IMG/VR virus record: IMGVR_UViG_3300032291_001871
Coordinates: 1 to 20,308 of that record
DNA length: 20,308 nt
From: a virus
Reading direction: 5' to 3' (one strand)
Positions 4,326-18,554 of the stretch are shown here, in pieces. The translations under genes were made by a program, and so were the position numbers. The notes below the pieces were generated by a model. It was not told the DNA's origin. It did no database searches and worked only from the letters and a program-made list of their open reading frames with translations. The stretch's first letter is position 1. Every line of letters begins with the position of its first letter.

Positions 4326-4449
4326 TTTATGGCGTTTTGGGTTTCGATTGTTTTTCCCTATCAGCGAAGCGGGGCGGTTCTGGGGCTGCTCAGAGGGGAA
4401 AGCCTGTAGGGGTGGAGACAATCACCGGGTGGCTGGCTTGTCTGCTTCG

Positions 4450-4487
4450 GGTACGTCTCGGCGGGTTTCCGGTACGTTTCGGCGGGT
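4450..4487. repeat. Direct repeat, 17 bp with 21-bp period
   Basis: GGTACGTCTCGGCGGGT (4450-4466) and GGTACGTTTCGGCGGGT (4471-4487) differ at one base. The 21-base period is two helical turns, so bound proteins would lie on the same face of the DNA. It sits about 100 bases before terS, so an iteron-like or TerS-binding site is possible. Only two copies are present. Confidence 0.65.
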
Positions 4488-4536
4488 GGTGTTGACCGGG
4501 TGAAAGTTGGGCGCGGGTGTCTTAAAGGCGTAGCCG

Positions 4537-4565
4537 TTGCAGCTCTTGCGTTGTTCTCCTATCAT
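4537..4565 (+). promoter_or_regulatory. Candidate promoter for terS giving a leaderless mRNA
   Basis: TTGCAG (4537-4542) and TATCAT (4560-4565, five of six to TATAAT) are 17 bases apart. The ATG of terS lies at 4573, where transcription would be expected to begin. No Shine-Dalgarno is found before that ATG. The -35 is weak (three of six). The alternative reading is that TTG 4537 is itself the start codon of a longer TerS, with AAAGG eight bases upstream. Confidence 0.35.
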
Positions 4566-4572
4566 TCGCCCC

Positions 4573-5322
4573 ATGAGTAAGACACCAACACCCAGCAAGC
4601 TATCAAGAGCCCAACTAAGGGAAGCACTCGATACTGTGCCCGTCTCCCATATATTGGGAAAGACCGTTTCCCGGGAATTGACGGCGAAACAAAAGACATT
4701 CGCCATGGAAGTCGCGAAGGGTTCGACGGGTGCTGCAGCGTATCGGAAGGCGTACAACTCAAGCGCCAAACCAAAGACACAAGGCAACCAAGCCCACAAG
4801 CTCAGCAGCAGACCGGACATCAACGCGGAAATCCAAGCGTATCAGCTGGCTATTGAGGCGGCGAAACATCGAAACCCTGCAGCCTTGAGGGAGCTGGTGA
4901 TTCAATCCCTTGTCCAAGTCATCATCGACCCCGAGAGTAAACCCGGTCAAATAACGGCAGCGGCTAAGGTGCTGGGCACCGTCACGGAAGTGGCTGCGTT
5001 CACCCAGCGCTCAGAAGTGAAGACAATCACCAGCTCAGAGGATGCGCGCGCGGCCATCATGGCACAGCTGAAACAACTGTCCAACGCAGACGCCATCGAC
5101 GTGGACGCCATCGATGCAGACGCCGACTCGCTGCTGGCTGAGCTTGCAAATTCGGCCCCGGACGCGACCCACCCACTCCCGACCCCCCAAACTGTGGATG
5201 AGGAGTCCCGTACTAATGCGCATACTATCTCGCAAGAACGATCCCCTCAAGAACCCGACTCCAAAAATTCCAACCCAGACCCCACCCTCCACGTGGAGGA
5301 TGACCCCCCCATGCCTTCTTAA
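4573..5322 (+). CDS. terS: Terminase small subunit
   Basis: TerS binds the phage DNA and hands it to the large terminase for cutting and packaging. The 249-residue product carries the expected N-terminal helix-turn-helix region (LTAKQKTFAMEVAKGSTGAA then AYRKAYN, residues about 41-70), typical of the 'terminase_2'-type small subunits. It is followed by a helical oligomerisation part (IQAYQLAIEAAKHRNPAALR). The C-terminal third is low complexity: an acidic repeat (DAIDVDAIDADAD), then a proline/serine/asparagine-rich tail ending DDPPMPS. The location before the large terminase agrees. The ATG at 4573 lacks an RBS. A TTG at 4537 would add 12 residues. Confidence 0.85.
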   Translation: MSKTPTPSKLSRAQLREALDTVPVSHILGKTVSRELTAKQKTFAMEVAKGSTGAAAYRKAYNSSAKPKTQGNQAHKLSSRPDINAEIQAYQLAIEAAKHRNPAALRELVIQSLVQVIIDPESKPGQITAAAKVLGTVTEVAAFTQRSEVKTITSSEDARAAIMAQLKQLSNADAIDVDAIDADADSLLAELANSAPDATHPLPTPQTVDEESRTNAHTISQERSPQEPDSKNSNPDPTLHVEDDPPMPS

Positions 5323-9824: not shown

Positions 9825-10022
9825 ATGGACAACCAAATTTTGGAGCTTCTCAACAAAAAGATTGAGGAGCAAGTCAGAAGTCATTCAGAAGCTTTGGTGG
9901 GTGGCAAGTCCGCGGACTTTGCCTCTTACCGAGAGTTGTGCGGGGTCATCCGAGGTCTCCAGACCGCACAGCGTGAAATTGGCGACCTCGTGCGTAAACT
10001 GAAAGATGACAATGACGACTAA
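9825..10022 (+). CDS. Small helical phage protein (65 aa)
   Basis: The 65-residue protein, MDNQILELLNKKIEEQVRSH through GLQTAQREIGDLVRKLKDDN, looks like two helices with charged amphipathic character and no cysteine. AGAGGAAT precedes the ATG by 6 bases. It lies 8 bases after the portal and overlaps the GroES-like gene. Small proteins of this helical type are common between portal and scaffold genes in podovirus-like phages. No function is assigned. It could help portal or scaffold assembly. Confidence 0.75.
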   Translation: MDNQILELLNKKIEEQVRSHSEALVGGKSADFASYRELCGVIRGLQTAQREIGDLVRKLKDDNDD

Positions 10023-10413
10023 CTTTGATGTTCAGGCAGTTGATCTGTCTGGCCTACTCAACAAGCCCGTTGAGGACAAGGCCAAACAAATCCCTGACCC
10101 TGTTACCTATCACCTTCTGTGCATGCTTCCAGAAGCCAAAGAGGAGTACGAGGGCGGTCTTATTAAGGCCAGCCAGACAATGCAGTACGAAGAGCTGCTG
10201 TCACCCGTGCTTTTTGTGGCCAAGATGGGTCCAGATGCATTCAAGGATGAGAAACGCTTTCCTAGCGGCCCAAGCTGCAAGGTTGGTGACTTCATTATCG
10301 TGCGCCCCAACACTGGAACGCGCATGAAAATTCACGGTACTGAGTGGCGCTTGCTGAATGACGATGCTGTTGAAGCTGTCATCCAAGACCCTCGCGGTAT
10401 CCAACGAGTTTAA
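10012..10413 (+). CDS. GroES-like co-chaperonin
   Basis: Residues about 30-125 of this 133-residue protein follow the GroES fold in order: strand VTYHLLCMLPEAK, a mobile-loop-like EEYEGGLIKAS (the GroEL-binding 'GGIVL' equivalent), strand LSPVLFVAKMGPDAF, then CKVGDFIIVRPNTGTRMKIH, and the C-terminal EWRLLNDDAVEAVIQDP (GroES: '[32 protein letters not shown]'). The N-terminal 29 residues are an extra, poorly ordered part. In phages such proteins (for example T4 gp31) replace host GroES so that GroEL can fold the major capsid protein. No GroEL gene is visible, so the host's would be used. The start at 10012 has GAAAG at the right spacing, but ATG 10006 is equally possible. It overlaps the upstream gene. 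Confidence 0.75.
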   Translation: MTTNFDVQAVDLSGLLNKPVEDKAKQIPDPVTYHLLCMLPEAKEEYEGGLIKASQTMQYEELLSPVLFVAKMGPDAFKDEKRFPSGPSCKVGDFIIVRPNTGTRMKIHGTEWRLLNDDAVEAVIQDPRGIQRV

Positions 10414-12479: not shown

Positions 12480-13388
12480 ATGGCTATTTCACGCGCACAA
12501 CTGCTGAAAGAACTGCTCCCCGGCTTGAACGCATTGTTCGGCCTTGAGTACGCTAAGTACGGCGAGCAGCACAAGGAAATCTACGAGACCGAAACTTCGG
12601 AGCGTAGCTTTGAAGAGGAAACCAAGCTGTCTGGCTTCTCCGCCGCTCCGGTGAAGAACGAAGGCTCTGCCATTGCTTATGACAATGCGCAAGAAGCTTG
12701 GACTGCACGTTACACCCACGAAACCATCGCGATGGGCTTCTCCATCACCGAAGAGGCCGTGGAAGATAACTTGTACGACAGCCTCTCCAGCCGCTACACC
12801 AAGGCTTTGGCCCGTGGTATGGCTTACACCAAGCAGGTTAAAGCTGCTGCAATCTTGAACAACGGCTTCTCCGCTGGCGTCACTTACGGCGACGGCGTGT
12901 CTTTGTTCTCTACTGCACACCCTCTGGTGTCTGGTGGCGTCAACAGCAACCGTCCTGCTACTGCTGCCGACCTGAACGAAACATCGTTGGAAAACGCTGT
13001 TATTCAGATCGCCGCTTGGACAGACGAACGCGGTTTGCTGATTGCTGCTAAGCCTAAGAAGCTGGTGGTTCCTCCATCGCTGCAATTCGTTGCAACTCGC
13101 TTGCTGGAAACTGAACTCCGCGTCGGCACTGCTGACAACGATATCAACGCCATCAAGAACAACGGCTCCATCCCCGGTGGTTACACAGTCAACAACTTCT
13201 TGACTGACACCAACGCTTGGTTCCTGTTGACTGATGTGCCTAACGGCCTGAAGCACTTCGTTCGTACTCCGCTGTCTAACAGCATGGACGGCGACTTTGA
13301 TACAGGCAACGTGCGTTACAAGGCTCGCGAGCGTTATTCGTTCGGCGTGTCTGACCCACTGGGCGCGTTCGGTTCTCCCGGCGCTTAA
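12480..13388 (+). CDS. Major capsid protein (Mu gpT-like)
   Basis: The 302-residue product is the likely major capsid subunit. Its N-terminus is MAISRAQLLKELLPGLNALF. The region ERSFEEETKLSGFSAAPVKN and the segment YGDGVSLFSTAHPLVSGGVN fit the Mu-type major head subunit (gpT) family, which has an HK97-like fold. It follows the scaffold and decoration genes and is followed by a strong terminator, as expected for a highly expressed gene. GGAG precedes the ATG. Codons are strongly biased. No N-terminal delta domain or protease is visible. The family call is by pattern only. Confidence 0.85.
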   Translation: MAISRAQLLKELLPGLNALFGLEYAKYGEQHKEIYETETSERSFEEETKLSGFSAAPVKNEGSAIAYDNAQEAWTARYTHETIAMGFSITEEAVEDNLYDSLSSRYTKALARGMAYTKQVKAAAILNNGFSAGVTYGDGVSLFSTAHPLVSGGVNSNRPATAADLNETSLENAVIQIAAWTDERGLLIAAKPKKLVVPPSLQFVATRLLETELRVGTADNDINAIKNNGSIPGGYTVNNFLTDTNAWFLLTDVPNGLKHFVRTPLSNSMDGDFDTGNVRYKARERYSFGVSDPLGAFGSPGA

Positions 13389-13965: not shown

Positions 13966-13979
13966 AAAGGAGATTGATT

Positions 13980-14486
13980 ATGGGCATGCAAACTGACGTA
14001 TTGGCCGGTACGCTTGTTGAGAGCGGGTTTGTTTATACGAGTCGCACACGTGTAAGAGGTATCTCACTAAAAGGCGGCGCGAATGCTGGGCTGCTAGAGA
14101 TTTTTAGCACCACTGCCGCACCCGTATCCGCAACATATGCACGTTCTGGAACAACTGTTACCGTAACAAAAACAGGCCACGGGCTTTCAACTGGCAATCA
14201 GGTTGGTTTGTCTTTTGCTACCGGCACCGGCGGAACAGCAACAGATGGGAATTACGTAGTTACAAGACTGACTGCGGATACTTTTTCCATAACAGACATC
14301 AACTCCGGCAGCATCACCGCTGGCGCAGCTTGTAAGTATGGCGACCGTTGGATCATGACGTACCGCACTGTTGCTGGCGACACGTTTTTGAATTATTGGC
14401 TCTTACCCGGTGAAGGCATATTGGCCCCCAACGGTGTATATATGGTCATTACAAACTTAACGGCGGCTTCGATCTTTTATGGCTGA
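13980..14486 (+). CDS. Small virion protein with an inserted beta-domain (168 aa)
   Basis: ATG 13980 follows AGGAG by 7 bases. The host protein consists of residues 1-48 (TRVRGISLKGGANAGLLEIF) and 121-168 (WLLPGEGILAPNGVYMVITN). These two halves together resemble a small (about 100 aa) structural protein I know from podovirus-like phages. Residues about 49-120 are a separate beta-sandwich-like module: TVTVTKTGHGLSTGNQVGLS, then DGNYVVTRLTADTFSITDIN, with the 'GHGLsxGxxV' signature of an inserted phage-surface domain. The end overlaps the glycosyltransferase start by 8 bases. The insertion could add a surface or adhesin-like face, which is an inference. Confidence 0.75.
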   Translation: MGMQTDVLAGTLVESGFVYTSRTRVRGISLKGGANAGLLEIFSTTAAPVSATYARSGTTVTVTKTGHGLSTGNQVGLSFATGTGGTATDGNYVVTRLTADTFSITDINSGSITAGAACKYGDRWIMTYRTVAGDTFLNYWLLPGEGILAPNGVYMVITNLTAASIFYG

Positions 14487-15228
14487 AGAAACACGCCCCA
14501 TGGATGTTGCGGGTCGCAAACTGATGATTGCGATCCCTGCCTACGACGGCAAGTTGAACATCAAAACTTCGTTTGCCTTGGCCGATTTGGTGGTCAAAGC
14601 TTCGAAGTTTGGCGTTCAGGTGCAACTGTCACATCTATCGGGCTGTTCTCTCATCACCAAAGCCAGAAACGTTCTGGTCGCCAACTTCTTGGAGTCGGAC
14701 TGCACGGACTTTTTGTTCGTCGATGCCGACATCGTGGTGGACGCAGAGTCTGTGCTCCGCTTGCTAGCGCTGAGCACTGGCAAGGACATCACAGCTGGCA
14801 TGTACACCCGCCGCGCAGAGGATCGCAAGTTCTTCTTGGACATTTACATCGACCAGAACAACACCCTTGAGTTCGATTCTCATGGGATGTTGCGCGTTGA
14901 GAACGTGGCCACGGGCTTCATGATGATCCAGCGCCATGTGCTAGAGAAAATGGTGGCCAACCACCCCGAGTGGACGTACTTCAACGACTTCTACAACCGC
15001 AACGAGAGCGCTTTGTTTGACTTTGAGTTGAGCAATGGCCAGTACATCGGTGAAGACTACACGTTCTGCAAACGCGCCCGCGCAGATGGCTTTACGGTGT
15101 TTGTTGATCCAGAGATTACCTTGCCGCACGTTGGTTCTCAAGAGTACCACCGCAGCTTCAAAGAGTCCGTGCTAATGCCGCTGATCGAGCAGCACTGCAC
15201 GCCTAAACTGAAAGTCGCTAATGGCTAA
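14479..15228 (+). CDS. GT-A glycosyltransferase
   Basis: The 249-residue protein is a GT2-like, nucleotide-sugar-dependent transferase. The motifs run in the usual order: N-terminal LMIAIPAYDGKL (residues 15-26), donor-binding DxD in LFVDADIVVD (79-88), TGFMMIQRHVL (145-155), the acceptor/base region YIGEDYTFCKRA (189-200), and a late histidine in LPHVGS (215-220). All catalytic elements are present. Phages carry such enzymes to glycosylate their own DNA or virion proteins, or host surface sugars. The place in a virion gene block favours a structural target, an inference only. ATG 14479 overlaps the preceding stop. ATG 14500 is possible. Confidence 0.85.
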   Translation: MAEETRPMDVAGRKLMIAIPAYDGKLNIKTSFALADLVVKASKFGVQVQLSHLSGCSLITKARNVLVANFLESDCTDFLFVDADIVVDAESVLRLLALSTGKDITAGMYTRRAEDRKFFLDIYIDQNNTLEFDSHGMLRVENVATGFMMIQRHVLEKMVANHPEWTYFNDFYNRNESALFDFELSNGQYIGEDYTFCKRARADGFTVFVDPEITLPHVGSQEYHRSFKESVLMPLIEQHCTPKLKVANG

Positions 15229-15476: not shown

Positions 15477-15725
15477 ATGGACTTGATGGTTTGGAATGTT
15501 CTGTTGTCGTTTGCTTCCGCAGCTTTGTTGCTGTGGGTTCGCGTGTCGCACGAAGAGGTGAAGCGCCTAAGCATTTTGCTCAGCAAGACTCGCGAAGAGC
15601 ACGCCGAGAAGTTTGTGACCAAAAACGACATGCATGCCGACATCAACCGAGTGATTACTCGTCTTGATCGCCTTGAGAGCAAGATAGACGACTTTATGAA
15701 GGAACAACGCAGTGCCCTCAGTTAG
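15477..15725 (+). CDS. Small membrane protein with coiled coil (82 aa)
   Basis: Residues about 4-20 (MVWNVLLSFASAALLLW) form one hydrophobic membrane segment. It is followed by a charged helical coiled coil with heptad spacing, FVTKNDMHADINRVITRLDR then LESKIDDFMKEQRS. This N-terminal-anchor-plus-coiled-coil design is frequent in phage holin-associated, spanin-like or virion membrane proteins. I recognise the 'VTK.D.HADINR' pattern as a phage family of unknown function. GGAAG lies upstream. The next gene overlaps it by 14 bases. No catalytic residues are visible, so holin or lysis roles are only possibilities. Confidence 0.7.
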   Translation: MDLMVWNVLLSFASAALLLWVRVSHEEVKRLSILLSKTREEHAEKFVTKNDMHADINRVITRLDRLESKIDDFMKEQRSALS

Positions 15726-16305
15726 CAAGAAACAACACAATTTCATGGCGGCGGTGGCCAACAACCCAGCCTTTGCCAAGAAAGCAGGCGTCCCACAGTC
15801 CGTGGGAAAAGAATTTTCCAATGCGGACAAGGGCCGCAAATTTTCAAAAGGTGGCGACACTATGGCTAAAAAAGATTCCGAATTTGACAGCGACGTTGCT
15901 ACGGTAAAACGTGCCCTGTACAAACCAGCTGGCGAGGCGGCGCTGTACAGTCGCGAACGCGGATTTGGTCCAAGTATGGCGCGTCGTCGTCTTGAGGACC
16001 GAGGTGTTGATGTTCGCGCTTTGGCGGCCAACGAACAAAACCCAGATGATCTTGGCAGTTACAAAAAAGGTGGCAAAGTGAAACACTCAGACGTTAAGAT
16101 GGGCAAGGGCATGATGCAAAAGGCCGTGAACAAACACGAAGGCCGTTTGCACAAGGGCGAGCCCATGACCAAGCTGGCCAAAGGCGGCATGGCTTCCAAG
16201 ATGGGCGCAGTAAAAACTGCAGCCCCAAGCCGTGATGGTATTGCCACAAAGGGCAAAACTAAAGGCACAATGGTGAAAATGGCCCGTGGTGGCAAAGCTT
16301 GCTAA
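15712..16305 (+). CDS. Basic Lys/Gly-rich protein with DUF3008-like N-terminus (197 aa, GTG start)
   Basis: GTG 15712 is used because GAAGGA lies 8 bases upstream. Residues 1-47 (SVSKKQHNFMAAVANNPAFA, then KKAGVPQSVGKEF) match the phage family often named DUF3008. Residues 51 on (MAKKDSEFDSDVATVKRALY) look like a second, separate unit. An AAAGG lies 10 bases before its ATG at 15862, so a shorter internal product is possible. The C-terminal part is lysine/glycine-rich with repeated KGG and AKGG motifs, including DGIATKGKTKGTMVKM, and ends GGKAC. Likely a fusion of two small phage proteins. Function unknown. Confidence 0.75.
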   Translation: MPSVSKKQHNFMAAVANNPAFAKKAGVPQSVGKEFSNADKGRKFSKGGDTMAKKDSEFDSDVATVKRALYKPAGEAALYSRERGFGPSMARRRLEDRGVDVRALAANEQNPDDLGSYKKGGKVKHSDVKMGKGMMQKAVNKHEGRLHKGEPMTKLAKGGMASKMGAVKTAAPSRDGIATKGKTKGTMVKMARGGKAC

Positions 16306-16314
16306 GGAGCTGAC

Positions 16315-16506
16315 ATGAACAAGGCAATGATTGAACAGGCTATGCAGGAAGCTGCTGACGCCAAGATGCGCAAGAAAACCGAGAAGGCATACAACGATGC
16401 CAGCACAACGCCTCCAGCTCCTATGGTCAAAAAGGCCAAAGGCGGCAGCGTGACTCGTGCTGACGGTTGCGTAATCAAAGGCCACACTCGCGGCAAGATG
16501 GTGTAA
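16315..16506 (+). CDS. Small basic motif protein (63 aa)
   Basis: MNKAMIEQAMQEAADAKMRK forms an N-terminal helix, followed by a linker with PPAPMV and a C-terminus KKAKGGSVTRADGCVIKGHT ending RGKMV. The 'RADGCVIKGHTRGKMV' ending matches, with changes, the 'DGIATKGKTKGTMV' motif of the gene before it and the 'ADGIAKQGKTKG' of the gene at 18091. AAGGAG precedes the ATG. Small, basic, with no membrane segment. Function unknown. The shared ending is treated as a finding. Confidence 0.75.
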   Translation: MNKAMIEQAMQEAADAKMRKKTEKAYNDASTTPPAPMVKKAKGGSVTRADGCVIKGHTRGKMV

Positions 16507-16508
16507 GC

Positions 16509-16757
16509 ATGAGAGCCAGTCGCGGCATGGGTGCCATCTCTCCTTCCAAGATGCCCAAGGGCGTGAAAAAAGCACGCCGGGACGATACCGATTTCACTGA
16601 GTACGCTGCTGGCGGAGAGGTGGGGTTGTATGCCAACATCAACGCCAAGAAAAAACGTATTGCTGCTGGCTCTGGTGAGAAGATGCGTAAGCCCGGCTCC
16701 AAAGGCGCTCCGACTGCTGACGCTTTCGTTCAATCCGCCAAGACGGCAAAGAAGTAA
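16509..16757 (+). CDS. Small basic conserved phage protein (82 aa)
   Basis: ATG 16509 (MRASRGMGAISPSKMPKGVK) is preferred to the upstream ATG at 16467, which would overlap the preceding gene. The start follows the stop of that gene by 2 bases. The middle is acidic (RDDTDFTEYAAGGEVG). The C-terminal half, GLYANINAKKKRIAAGSGEK then MRKPGSKGAPTADAF, is a strongly conserved pattern I know from many phages, of unknown function. It is basic and may bind DNA or virion parts. There is no RBS of good quality before the start, so it may be coupled to the previous gene. Confidence 0.75.
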   Translation: MRASRGMGAISPSKMPKGVKKARRDDTDFTEYAAGGEVGLYANINAKKKRIAAGSGEKMRKPGSKGAPTADAFVQSAKTAKK

Positions 16758-17696: not shown

Positions 17697-18079
17697 TGGG
17701 CAATCGCTTCGCATCCGGCAAAATAGCGATTGCGGAGTGTGATCGTTGCGGGCAGCAGTACCAACTGAAGAAGTTGCGCACCGAGATCATCAAGCAACGC
17801 AAATACGAGCTGCTGGTGTGCCCGGAGTGCTGGGACCCAGATCAGCCGCAGTTGATGCTTGGCACATTCCCCGTGGATGACCCACAAGCTCTACGCAATC
17901 CGCGTAGGGATACAACGTACGTTACCTCGGGTGTAAACGTCAACGGCAACTTGTCTGGTGGTTCACGAGACATTCAGTGGGGCTGGGCACCTGTGGGTGG
18001 GGCCAGCGGCTTTGATGACGGACTCACACCGAACTACTTGGTAATTCGGACATATATTGGTACAGTCACCATATCTTGA
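17696..18079 (+). CDS. Zinc-ribbon virion-associated protein (127 aa)
   Basis: Residues 15-18 (CDRC) and 42-45 (CPEC) form a CxxC-23-CxxC zinc ribbon: AECDRCGQQYQLKKLRTEII and ELLVCPECWDPDQPQ. It is followed by FPVDDPQALRNPRRDT and a Gly/Asn-rich, beta-like C-terminal part (VNVNGNLSGGSRDIQWGWAP). The stop/start overlap TGATG links it to the connector gene. A zinc ribbon beside connector genes is a known arrangement in phages of this type, role uncertain. It could bind DNA or stabilise the neck. No other domain recognised. Confidence 0.75.
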   Translation: MGNRFASGKIAIAECDRCGQQYQLKKLRTEIIKQRKYELLVCPECWDPDQPQLMLGTFPVDDPQALRNPRRDTTYVTSGVNVNGNLSGGSRDIQWGWAPVGGASGFDDGLTPNYLVIRTYIGTVTIS

Positions 18080-18090
18080 AGGAGCTTAAA

Positions 18091-18285
18091 ATGGCATTCA
18101 CAAAATCAGCAGATGGCATTGCCAAACAAGGCAAAACCAAGGGCAAGAACTTGGGCGACAGCGGCCCCACATCCAAAGAGATGATGGGCGGCAAACCCGG
18201 CAAAAGCGGTGGCGGCAAAACCAACGCGGACATGAAGACCATGGGTCGCGGTCTGGCTAAAATCGCAGCACAGAAACGAGGCTAA
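18091..18285 (+). CDS. Small basic Lys/Gly-rich motif protein (64 aa)
   Basis: ATG 18091 follows AAGGAG by 7 bases. The upstream TTG (18076) would overlap the RBS and is not preferred. The protein, MAFTKSADGIAKQGKTKGKN, continues LGDSGPTSKEMMGGKPGKSG and ends RGLAKIAAQKRG. It is very basic, with no cysteine. Its N-terminal SADGIAKQGKTKG matches the motif in the genes at 15712 and 16315, but here at the start of the protein instead of the end. Probably a small virion or DNA-interacting protein. Confidence 0.75.
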   Translation: MAFTKSADGIAKQGKTKGKNLGDSGPTSKEMMGGKPGKSGGGKTNADMKTMGRGLAKIAAQKRG

Positions 18286-18287
18286 TC

Positions 18288-18554
18288 ATGGCAACCTTCA
18301 GCAAAAAAATGATGGGCAAAGAAGTTGGTGATGCCAAAGTCTATGCCAAGCCGCACACGATGGATGGTAAGGTTGTGAAACCTCAGACCAATCCCGGCAA
18401 AGAGCCAAACCAAAGTCGCGTTGACACACTGAACATGAGTGTTGGCGCAATGAGCAACAAGCCAGATGGCATGCCTACCAAGACCAGCGGCATCAAAGTG
18501 CGTGGTACAGGTGCGGCCACCAAAGGTTTGATGGCACGGGGCCCAATGGCCTAA
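18288..18554 (+). CDS. Small basic conserved phage protein (88 aa)
   Basis: The product begins MATFSKKMMGKEVGDAKVYA and is low in hydrophobic residues, with a Pro/Asn-rich centre (KPQTNPGKEPNQSRVDTLNM). Its C-terminus, SGIKVRGTGAATKGLMARGP then MA, is a conserved ending I recognise from many phages (usual form 'RGxGAATKGxxARGPMA'). GAGG precedes the ATG. It is 2 bases after the previous gene. Function unknown. Its place between the zinc-ribbon and adaptor genes suggests a virion assembly protein. Confidence 0.75.
   Translation: MATFSKKMMGKEVGDAKVYAKPHTMDGKVVKPQTNPGKEPNQSRVDTLNMSVGAMSNKPDGMPTKTSGIKVRGTGAATKGLMARGPMA

Follow-up and report, generated by a model that had tools for sequence, protein, structure and literature searches.

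What does a GroES-like protein do in the head operon of a phage, and which protein does it help to fold? The question is raised by a virus record of 20.3 kb (IMG/VR IMGVR_UViG_3300032291_001871), which we analysed over its full length of 20,308 nucleotides (the window). A sequence-only reading had picked out one ORF as a phage-encoded co-chaperonin between portal and scaffold genes, and this place is confirmed (Table 1). An alternative in-frame ATG is found at 10006; counted from 10012, the ORF shares its first 11 nt with the end of the preceding 65-aa ORF, and a gap of 9 nt separates it from the 321-aa scaffold-like gene. As for that neighbour, the word 'scaffold' is read from position and composition, its PHROG being unnamed. 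The major capsid protein matches Pfam Phage_capsid_4 (7e-16), Mu gpT (9e-10) and PHROG 371 (6e-25), and a search of PDB sequences with its profile gave nothing related at E 0.1.

Table 1. Packaging and head genes of the window in their order along the operon, with the mobile-loop segment of the GroES-family protein
Feature	Position	Strand	Remarks
Terminase small subunit	4537–5322		rightward packaging/head operon
116-aa ORF			between terminase small subunit and portal
Terminase large subunit			follows the 116-aa ORF, before portal
Portal protein, 840 aa	7294–9816	+	PHROG 1216, 3.2e-19
65-aa ORF	9825–10022	+	conserved neighbour directly 5' of GroES
Cpn10/GroES-family protein, 133 aa (by homology and model)	10012–10413	+	ATG at 10012, stop ends 10413
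Mobile-loop segment KEEYEGGLIKASQTMQYE	10138–10191	+	GG residues 48–49, L-I-K residues 50–52 (counted from 10012)
Scaffold-like candidate, 321 aa	10423–11388	+	by position and composition; PHROG 28737 (unnamed)
Conserved cassette protein, 153 aa	11391–11852	+	PHROG 36003
Virion structural protein, 198 aa	11873–12469	+	PHROG 1731, 7e-4
Major capsid protein, 302 aa, 32.7 kDa	12480–13388	+	Phage_capsid_4 / Mu gpT type

As judged by sequence profiles and by a predicted structure, the product of this ORF is a Cpn10/GroES homologue. By itself, it matches Pfam Cpn10 weakly (E 0.0063, 17.0 bits with a cut-off of 21.1, residues 70–126 only) and likewise stays below the NCBIfam cut-offs, and this weak Pfam score is what would speak for an unrelated head protein that resembles GroES by chance. 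Against such a reading, profiles, relatives and structure model all agree on Cpn10, leaving it next to no probability, and we rejected it. PHROG 3188, 'co-chaperonin GroES', matches residues 32–127 (E 1.2e-7), and all seven GenBank relatives scanned pass the Pfam Cpn10 cut-off (36.7–60.2 bits). Homology to Cpn10 is evident at the profile level: a family profile built from eight sequences, the window protein included, retrieved 18 Cpn10-type PDB sequences (best 3.7e-21). The AlphaFold2 model, computed with 45 sequences (mean pLDDT 80.5), contains the GroES beta-barrel, with Cpn10 in the top rows of both Foldseek and VIA. The first 36 PDB rows of Foldseek are all Cpn10-type chains (best 1.9e-6), T4 gp31 being found at 7.6e-4; VIA aligned the model to GroES in a GroEL complex (8wuc, Z 10.1) and to GroEL-bound gp31 (2cgt, Z 8.1; another gp31 match, Z 7.5). 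The comparison with GroES and gp31 that the sequence-only reading had proposed as a check thus found both. The next unrelated rows are quinone oxidoreductases (Z up to 6.5), enzymes that contain a GroES-like domain. The nine best viral structure-model matches are all named GroES, and the GroES of Pseudoalteromonas siphovirus B8b is among the fold matches.

The finer points of that reading fared similarly. GroES-like identity is borne out by PHROG 3188, the relatives, the family profile and the AlphaFold2 model; the strand core it had named, VGDFIIVRPNTGTRMKIHG, aligns with the C-terminal Cpn10 strands; and the extra N-terminal part is real, varying in length among relatives and modelled at low confidence (mean pLDDT 47 for residues 1–10 and 60 for residues 11–20). 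Bacterial and mitochondrial GroES/Hsp10 share with the window protein the Cpn10 barrel, the mobile loop and the C-terminal strands, all predicted for the latter. Purifying selection on the gene is strong, with a median dN/dS of 0.051 over 1588 pairs (59 unique genes among the 74 usable of 81).

The surroundings of the gene are conserved. Among IMG/VR loci found through GroES, the 65-aa ORF lies just 5' of GroES at 80/80 close and 71/72 distant assessable loci, the scaffold-like gene just 3' at 66/67 close and 61/61 distant loci (127/128 in all, a homologue being scored if it starts within 600 nt 3' of GroES), and the portal gene 5' at 60/60 and 34/34. A later profile of the 65-aa ORF, run over all loci, recognised it at 296 loci, every one with GroES, most of them found through GroES or the capsid protein, so that the count is not an independent test of linkage; no copy was recognised at 40 GroES loci whose upstream sequence exceeds 400 nt. 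In annotated records, extra genes sit between portal and the 65-aa ORF (9–10 kb in Roseobacter phages), and those examined have none between the 65-aa ORF, GroES and the scaffold-like gene.

The 65-aa protein itself carries a YxxxCGxIxGL motif, and the stop of its gene reaches the earliest possible GroES start at 162 of 165 loci. The best PHROG match of the window copy is only 0.11, two relatives match PHROG 32603 (function unnamed; 2e-34 and 2e-33), and the best match of the family profile to solved structures is 0.045. This small protein may act together with GroES or with the portal protein.

How widespread are such genes? Chaperonins of the virioplankton are said to have been treated by Marine et al. 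in 2017. A pattern search of IMG/VR gave 411 matches, 408 of which encode a relative, and 80 were kept as close relatives; a second scan with the family alignment brought at least 594 relatives (594 of 600 among the matches listed). Weak matches were also obtained in Bosea and Hyphomicrobiales records (L171, L172); the Bosea one we ascribe to chance, a 641-aa ORF there sharing the search stretch SQTMQYEE. Bacteroidetes, suggested as host of the clade by the metagenome-assembled genome (MAG) bin of locus L170, was dropped, as this bin is not trusted. A Bacteroidetes MAG contig (L495, 1477–3177) holds a 566-aa ORF with two separate Cpn10 matches, which resembles several GroES-like units in a row; the contig is possibly that of a large phage binned into the MAG.

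Homologues are found in nine GenBank phages, every one annotated as GroES, and annotated relatives come from phages of Planktothrix, Pelagibacter, Roseobacter, Caulobacter and Alcaligenes. A 2022 study lists 'co-chaperonin GroES' among the 13 core genes of HTVC023P-type pelagiphage genomes (PMC9599517), the legend of a genome figure marks GroES in Roseobacter phages CRP-901/902 (PMC10149686), and a 2015 paper describes GroES in a siphovirus (Pseudoalteromonas B8b), GroES having earlier been known in myo- and podoviruses (PMC4294664). The view of phage co-chaperonins as uncommon is therefore wrong for this group, given the reported core gene of HTVC023P-type phages and the many IMG/VR relatives. 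As in the window, GroES lies upstream of scaffold-like and capsid genes in HTVC023P-type phages, Roseobacter CRP-901/902, Planktothrix Pag-Yong1 and Synechococcus MinM2, phage DSL-LC04, Caulobacter RW and Alcaligenes QDWS535; the annotated phage GroES proteins are only 21–44% identical to the window protein, and the records of these carriers gave no GroEL match. Head operons with a phage GroES are, then, already known. What the analysis adds is a lineage-wide tie to one capsid protein together with a rebuilt docking loop, which makes this variant worth testing at the bench.

The tie became apparent when loci were sought through the capsid protein, which avoids finding GroES by searching for GroES. 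A locus was taken as assessable if 4 kb or more of sequence precedes the capsid gene, shorter ones being dropped before counting: 54/80 in scan A4, 40 of 68 new loci in A5 and 46/80 in A6. GroES is nearby at 54/54 and 40/40 loci in A4 and A5, ending 1.8–3.1 kb before the capsid gene, and at 0/3 and 37/43 in A6, for which deep-branching capsids were the starting point. When the 140 assessable loci, which include repeats (A6 returned at least two A4 contigs, L203/L347 and L196/L356), are grouped by how far their capsid protein is identical to that of the window, GroES is nearby in 125/125 cases at 40% or more, 6/7 at 35–40% and 0/8 below 35%. The nine without it nearby (9/140) are L333, L335, L336, L339, L340, L341, L344, L345 and L393; a Pfam search of these nine records and three more, most of them fragments, gave one match in 12, below the cut-off. 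GroES is near none of 80 T7-type control loci, a weak control as all 80 are relatives of one phage, and Pfam Cpn10 has no match in 28 T7-type records. The capsid protein is found in 21 GenBank records, and a Cpn10 gene in 17/17 of those examined (all but H22, H24, H25 and H30); in 15/17 it precedes the scaffold-like and capsid genes. The exceptions are vir526, with GroES upstream of the terminase, and ct7ZZ929, with GroES elsewhere, and these placements mean that even two deep-branching capsids come with GroES, outside the cassette. The GroES gene thus tracks one capsid-protein lineage.

All seven genes are present at 122 loci; over the 81 left after dereplication, GroES distances correlate with the distances for portal (r 0.84), capsid (0.80), the 153-aa protein (0.77), the scaffold-like protein (0.76), the 198-aa protein (0.60) and terminase (0.50), so that portal distances follow GroES slightly better than capsid distances do. 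A function in head assembly predicts such correlations, but any tightly linked operon gene would show them; genes of one operon are passed on as a block in any case, and the link with the capsid gene is therefore no proof that the capsid protein is a folding client. If the tie does reflect dependence, phages of several host groups form a natural set for asking why an HK97-type capsid protein of small size would need a GroEL lid of its own.

A separate observation concerns vir526 (BK063670; L180, 980–1336), whose host is given as Methanomicrobiales: its groS lies upstream of the terminase, it has a related capsid and no GroEL match was found. The thermosome is not known to need a GroES, and the partner of the vir526 protein would be in question if the host has a thermosome only.

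If the phage protein is a lid, its partner would have to come from the host: the GroEL family (PF00118) has no match in 28/28 records (19/19, a further 8/8 related ones and the window), some of them fragments and the window and 11 IMG/VR records possibly incomplete, while controls were detected in 14/14. The search for a phage GroEL proposed by the sequence-only reading thus came back empty for the window and its 27 related records, fragments included. We consider it probable that the window encodes a virus-specific lid for host GroEL with a rebuilt docking loop, and that this lid serves a head protein, the major capsid protein being the prime candidate. The data show homology, a predicted fold, the place in the operon, purifying selection, the tie to one capsid lineage and a changed loop. 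What we infer here, namely late expression, a heptamer, GroEL binding, the client and the reason for the loop change, would fit together as follows. The phage Cpn10, presumably made late together with the head proteins, would assemble into a seven-fold lid whose mobile loop grips host GroEL, taking the place of host GroES, and would thereby help a head protein to fold; the best candidate is the capsid protein, whose gene lies 2 kb downstream. In the clade of the window, the loop has an acidic stem and carries Lys or Arg in place of the third hydrophobic residue.

The analogy that points to the capsid protein as the most probable client is the T4 pair of gp31 and gp23. Both T4 gp31 and RB49 CocO are, as is proposed here for the window protein, phage Cpn10 proteins used with host GroEL, and gp31 allows a detailed comparison. 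In T4, gp31 and GroEL are needed for the folding of gp23, GroES cannot replace gp31, and the gp31 proteins of T-even phages prefer their own gp23 (PMC3012670). A phage Cpn10 without a phage GroEL, the gp31 arrangement, is also what the records searched contain. However, T4 gene 31 is not among the head genes, whereas the GroES of the window lies inside the head cassette, and the gp31 loop is hydrophobic (S-G-L-I-I), whereas that of the window reads G-G-L-I-K. Furthermore, the need for gp31 is attributed to cage size, gp23 being a protein of ~56 kDa (PMC6318259); at 32.7 kDa, the capsid protein of the window is not too large for the GroEL–GroES cage, and the larger-cage rationale does not carry over. 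That so small a protein fits the ordinary cage is a caution against the need for a special lid. The sequence-only reading, in which host GroEL is redirected to fold the capsid protein, therefore agrees with the lack of a phage GroEL and with the capsid tie but sits less well with the L-I-K tripeptide and the small capsid, and we keep it as conditional; its GroES fold, mobile-loop position and head-operon place hold, its 'uncommon' does not.

The loop deserves separate attention. A mobile loop with a glycine pair lies between strands 1 and 2, and GGLIK, which had been proposed as the mobile-loop equivalent, does align where GroES has its mobile-loop GG-I-V-L, with L-I-K replacing I25-V26-L27. 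In E. coli GroES, these three residues contact GroEL helices H and I (PMC5653362, PMC3514286). I25A, I25D, L27A and L27D abolish the interaction with GroEL but V26D does not, the Ala forms (I25A, L27A) cutting the affinity more than 1000-fold; Lys at position 27 is not among the changes given in the accessible portion of that paper (PMC5575113). Positions 25 and 27 of the hydrophobic tripeptide are needed, and L-I-K has Lys at the latter; for this reason we file the window protein as a Cpn10 member for which a co-chaperonin function is probable. The Lys at the third position is, moreover, a caution against the GroEL-lid reading.

The substitution is not peculiar to the window. The third docking residue is Lys in 80/80 close relatives, and Lys in 187 and Arg in 9 of 344 phage proteins (K/R 196/344, with many near copies), whereas in bacterial GroES it is Ile (55) or Leu (7) at all 62 loci sampled, the best-scoring ones from 60 and 61 genomes plus three loci, a control in which divergent second copies are under-represented; bacterial GroES also differs in the shorter N terminus. 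Among the annotated phages, the residue is Leu in the HTVC, CRP, DSL and RW proteins and Arg in MinM2/Pag-Yong1, as against Lys in the window, and the loop of the Alcaligenes phage, unlike L-I-K, has no clear docking tripeptide. The first docking position is I/L/V in 341/344 phage proteins. The pair GG is present in the window, in 80/80 close relatives and in 214/344 phage proteins, the rest having SG and other variants; in the Lys clade, it is often S-G, T-G or T-D. In a tree of 134 dereplicated proteins, built from few columns for its rows and with a bootstrap that had not settled, one branch (support 100/91) unites 57 rows, all K/R, with three K/R rows outside, and the K/R label requires 4 changes as compared to 44 when shuffled. 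In the K/R rows, (T/E/K)-(Y/F)-(E/D) mostly stands in place of the K-T-K stem that precedes the glycines, and over the six residues ahead of the glycine pair the charge averages −2.23 in the 60 K/R rows versus +0.62 in the 74 others. The literature that surfaced, mostly from outside subscription journals and in part as excerpts, holds no mention of a Lys docking loop.

The change may be an adaptation to the GroEL of the hosts, or give a weaker, faster-cycling grip, and the aliphatic part of the Lys could still fill the GroEL pocket; alternatively, docking on GroEL may have been given up. We rate adaptation and weaker grip together well above the loss of docking because the first two tripeptide positions are hydrophobic in nearly all proteins. 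With a substitution fixed at a site where Ala and Asp abolish binding in E. coli, the Lys loop allows a direct test of how far GroES really depends on its docking tripeptide. A more far-reaching proposal, which we regard as tentative and rather unlikely, is that the rebuilt loop (an acidic, often E-Y/F-E stem and Phi-Phi-Lys) docks GroEL non-canonically or, free of GroEL, belongs to a dedicated capsid-assembly ring that co-evolves with one capsid lineage across a large phage clade.

Two other functions were weighed against that of a lid for a head protein. The Cpn10 ring of the Lys clade might have been exapted, no longer docking on GroEL and acting directly in head assembly, where it could for instance chaperone the portal, scaffold or capsid protein or serve as a spacer for one of them. 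Such a role would accommodate a tripeptide that has lost a residue essential in E. coli and yet sits in a gene under strong purifying selection, kept in the head cassette and co-diverging most with the portal gene. Against it stands the conservation of I/L/V at the first docking position (341/344), and the loop aligns gap-free with that of relatives that retain the full hydrophobic tripeptide in the same cassette, which suggests that the ancestral role was probably docking on GroEL; we think an exapted ring unlikely.

The phage protein might, on the other hand, replace or supplement host GroES in general during infection, with no special client, and a 33-kDa capsid protein would indeed need no special cage. 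The transcription data on the GroES-bearing pelagiphage HTVC027P can be read both ways: genes for host chaperones and folding catalysts are among those down-regulated, but early genes of the phage correlate positively with host chaperone genes, and the host supply may not simply fall (PMC12753301). A general supply does not account for GroES being absent nearby at 8/8 loci with capsids below 35% identity and at 80/80 T7-type loci, nor for its usual place in the head cassette, and we consider it unlikely as well. The reading we prefer is still that of a host-GroEL lid for a head protein.

Several minor observations were made elsewhere in the window. Around 4400–4540, gene direction in the ORF list seems to switch, with leftward genes to the left and the packaging/head operon to the right. 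A glycosyltransferase-like gene lies in the virion block at 14479–15228 (PHROG 1574, unnamed, and weak Anp1/glycosyltransferase matches), and the adjoining ORF at 13974–14486 has weak tail/baseplate PHROG matches. Finally, small Lys/Gly-rich proteins are encoded in the structural region at 15712–16757 and 18076–18554, the ORF at 15712–16302 matching an unnamed PHROG and two virion-protein PHROGs.
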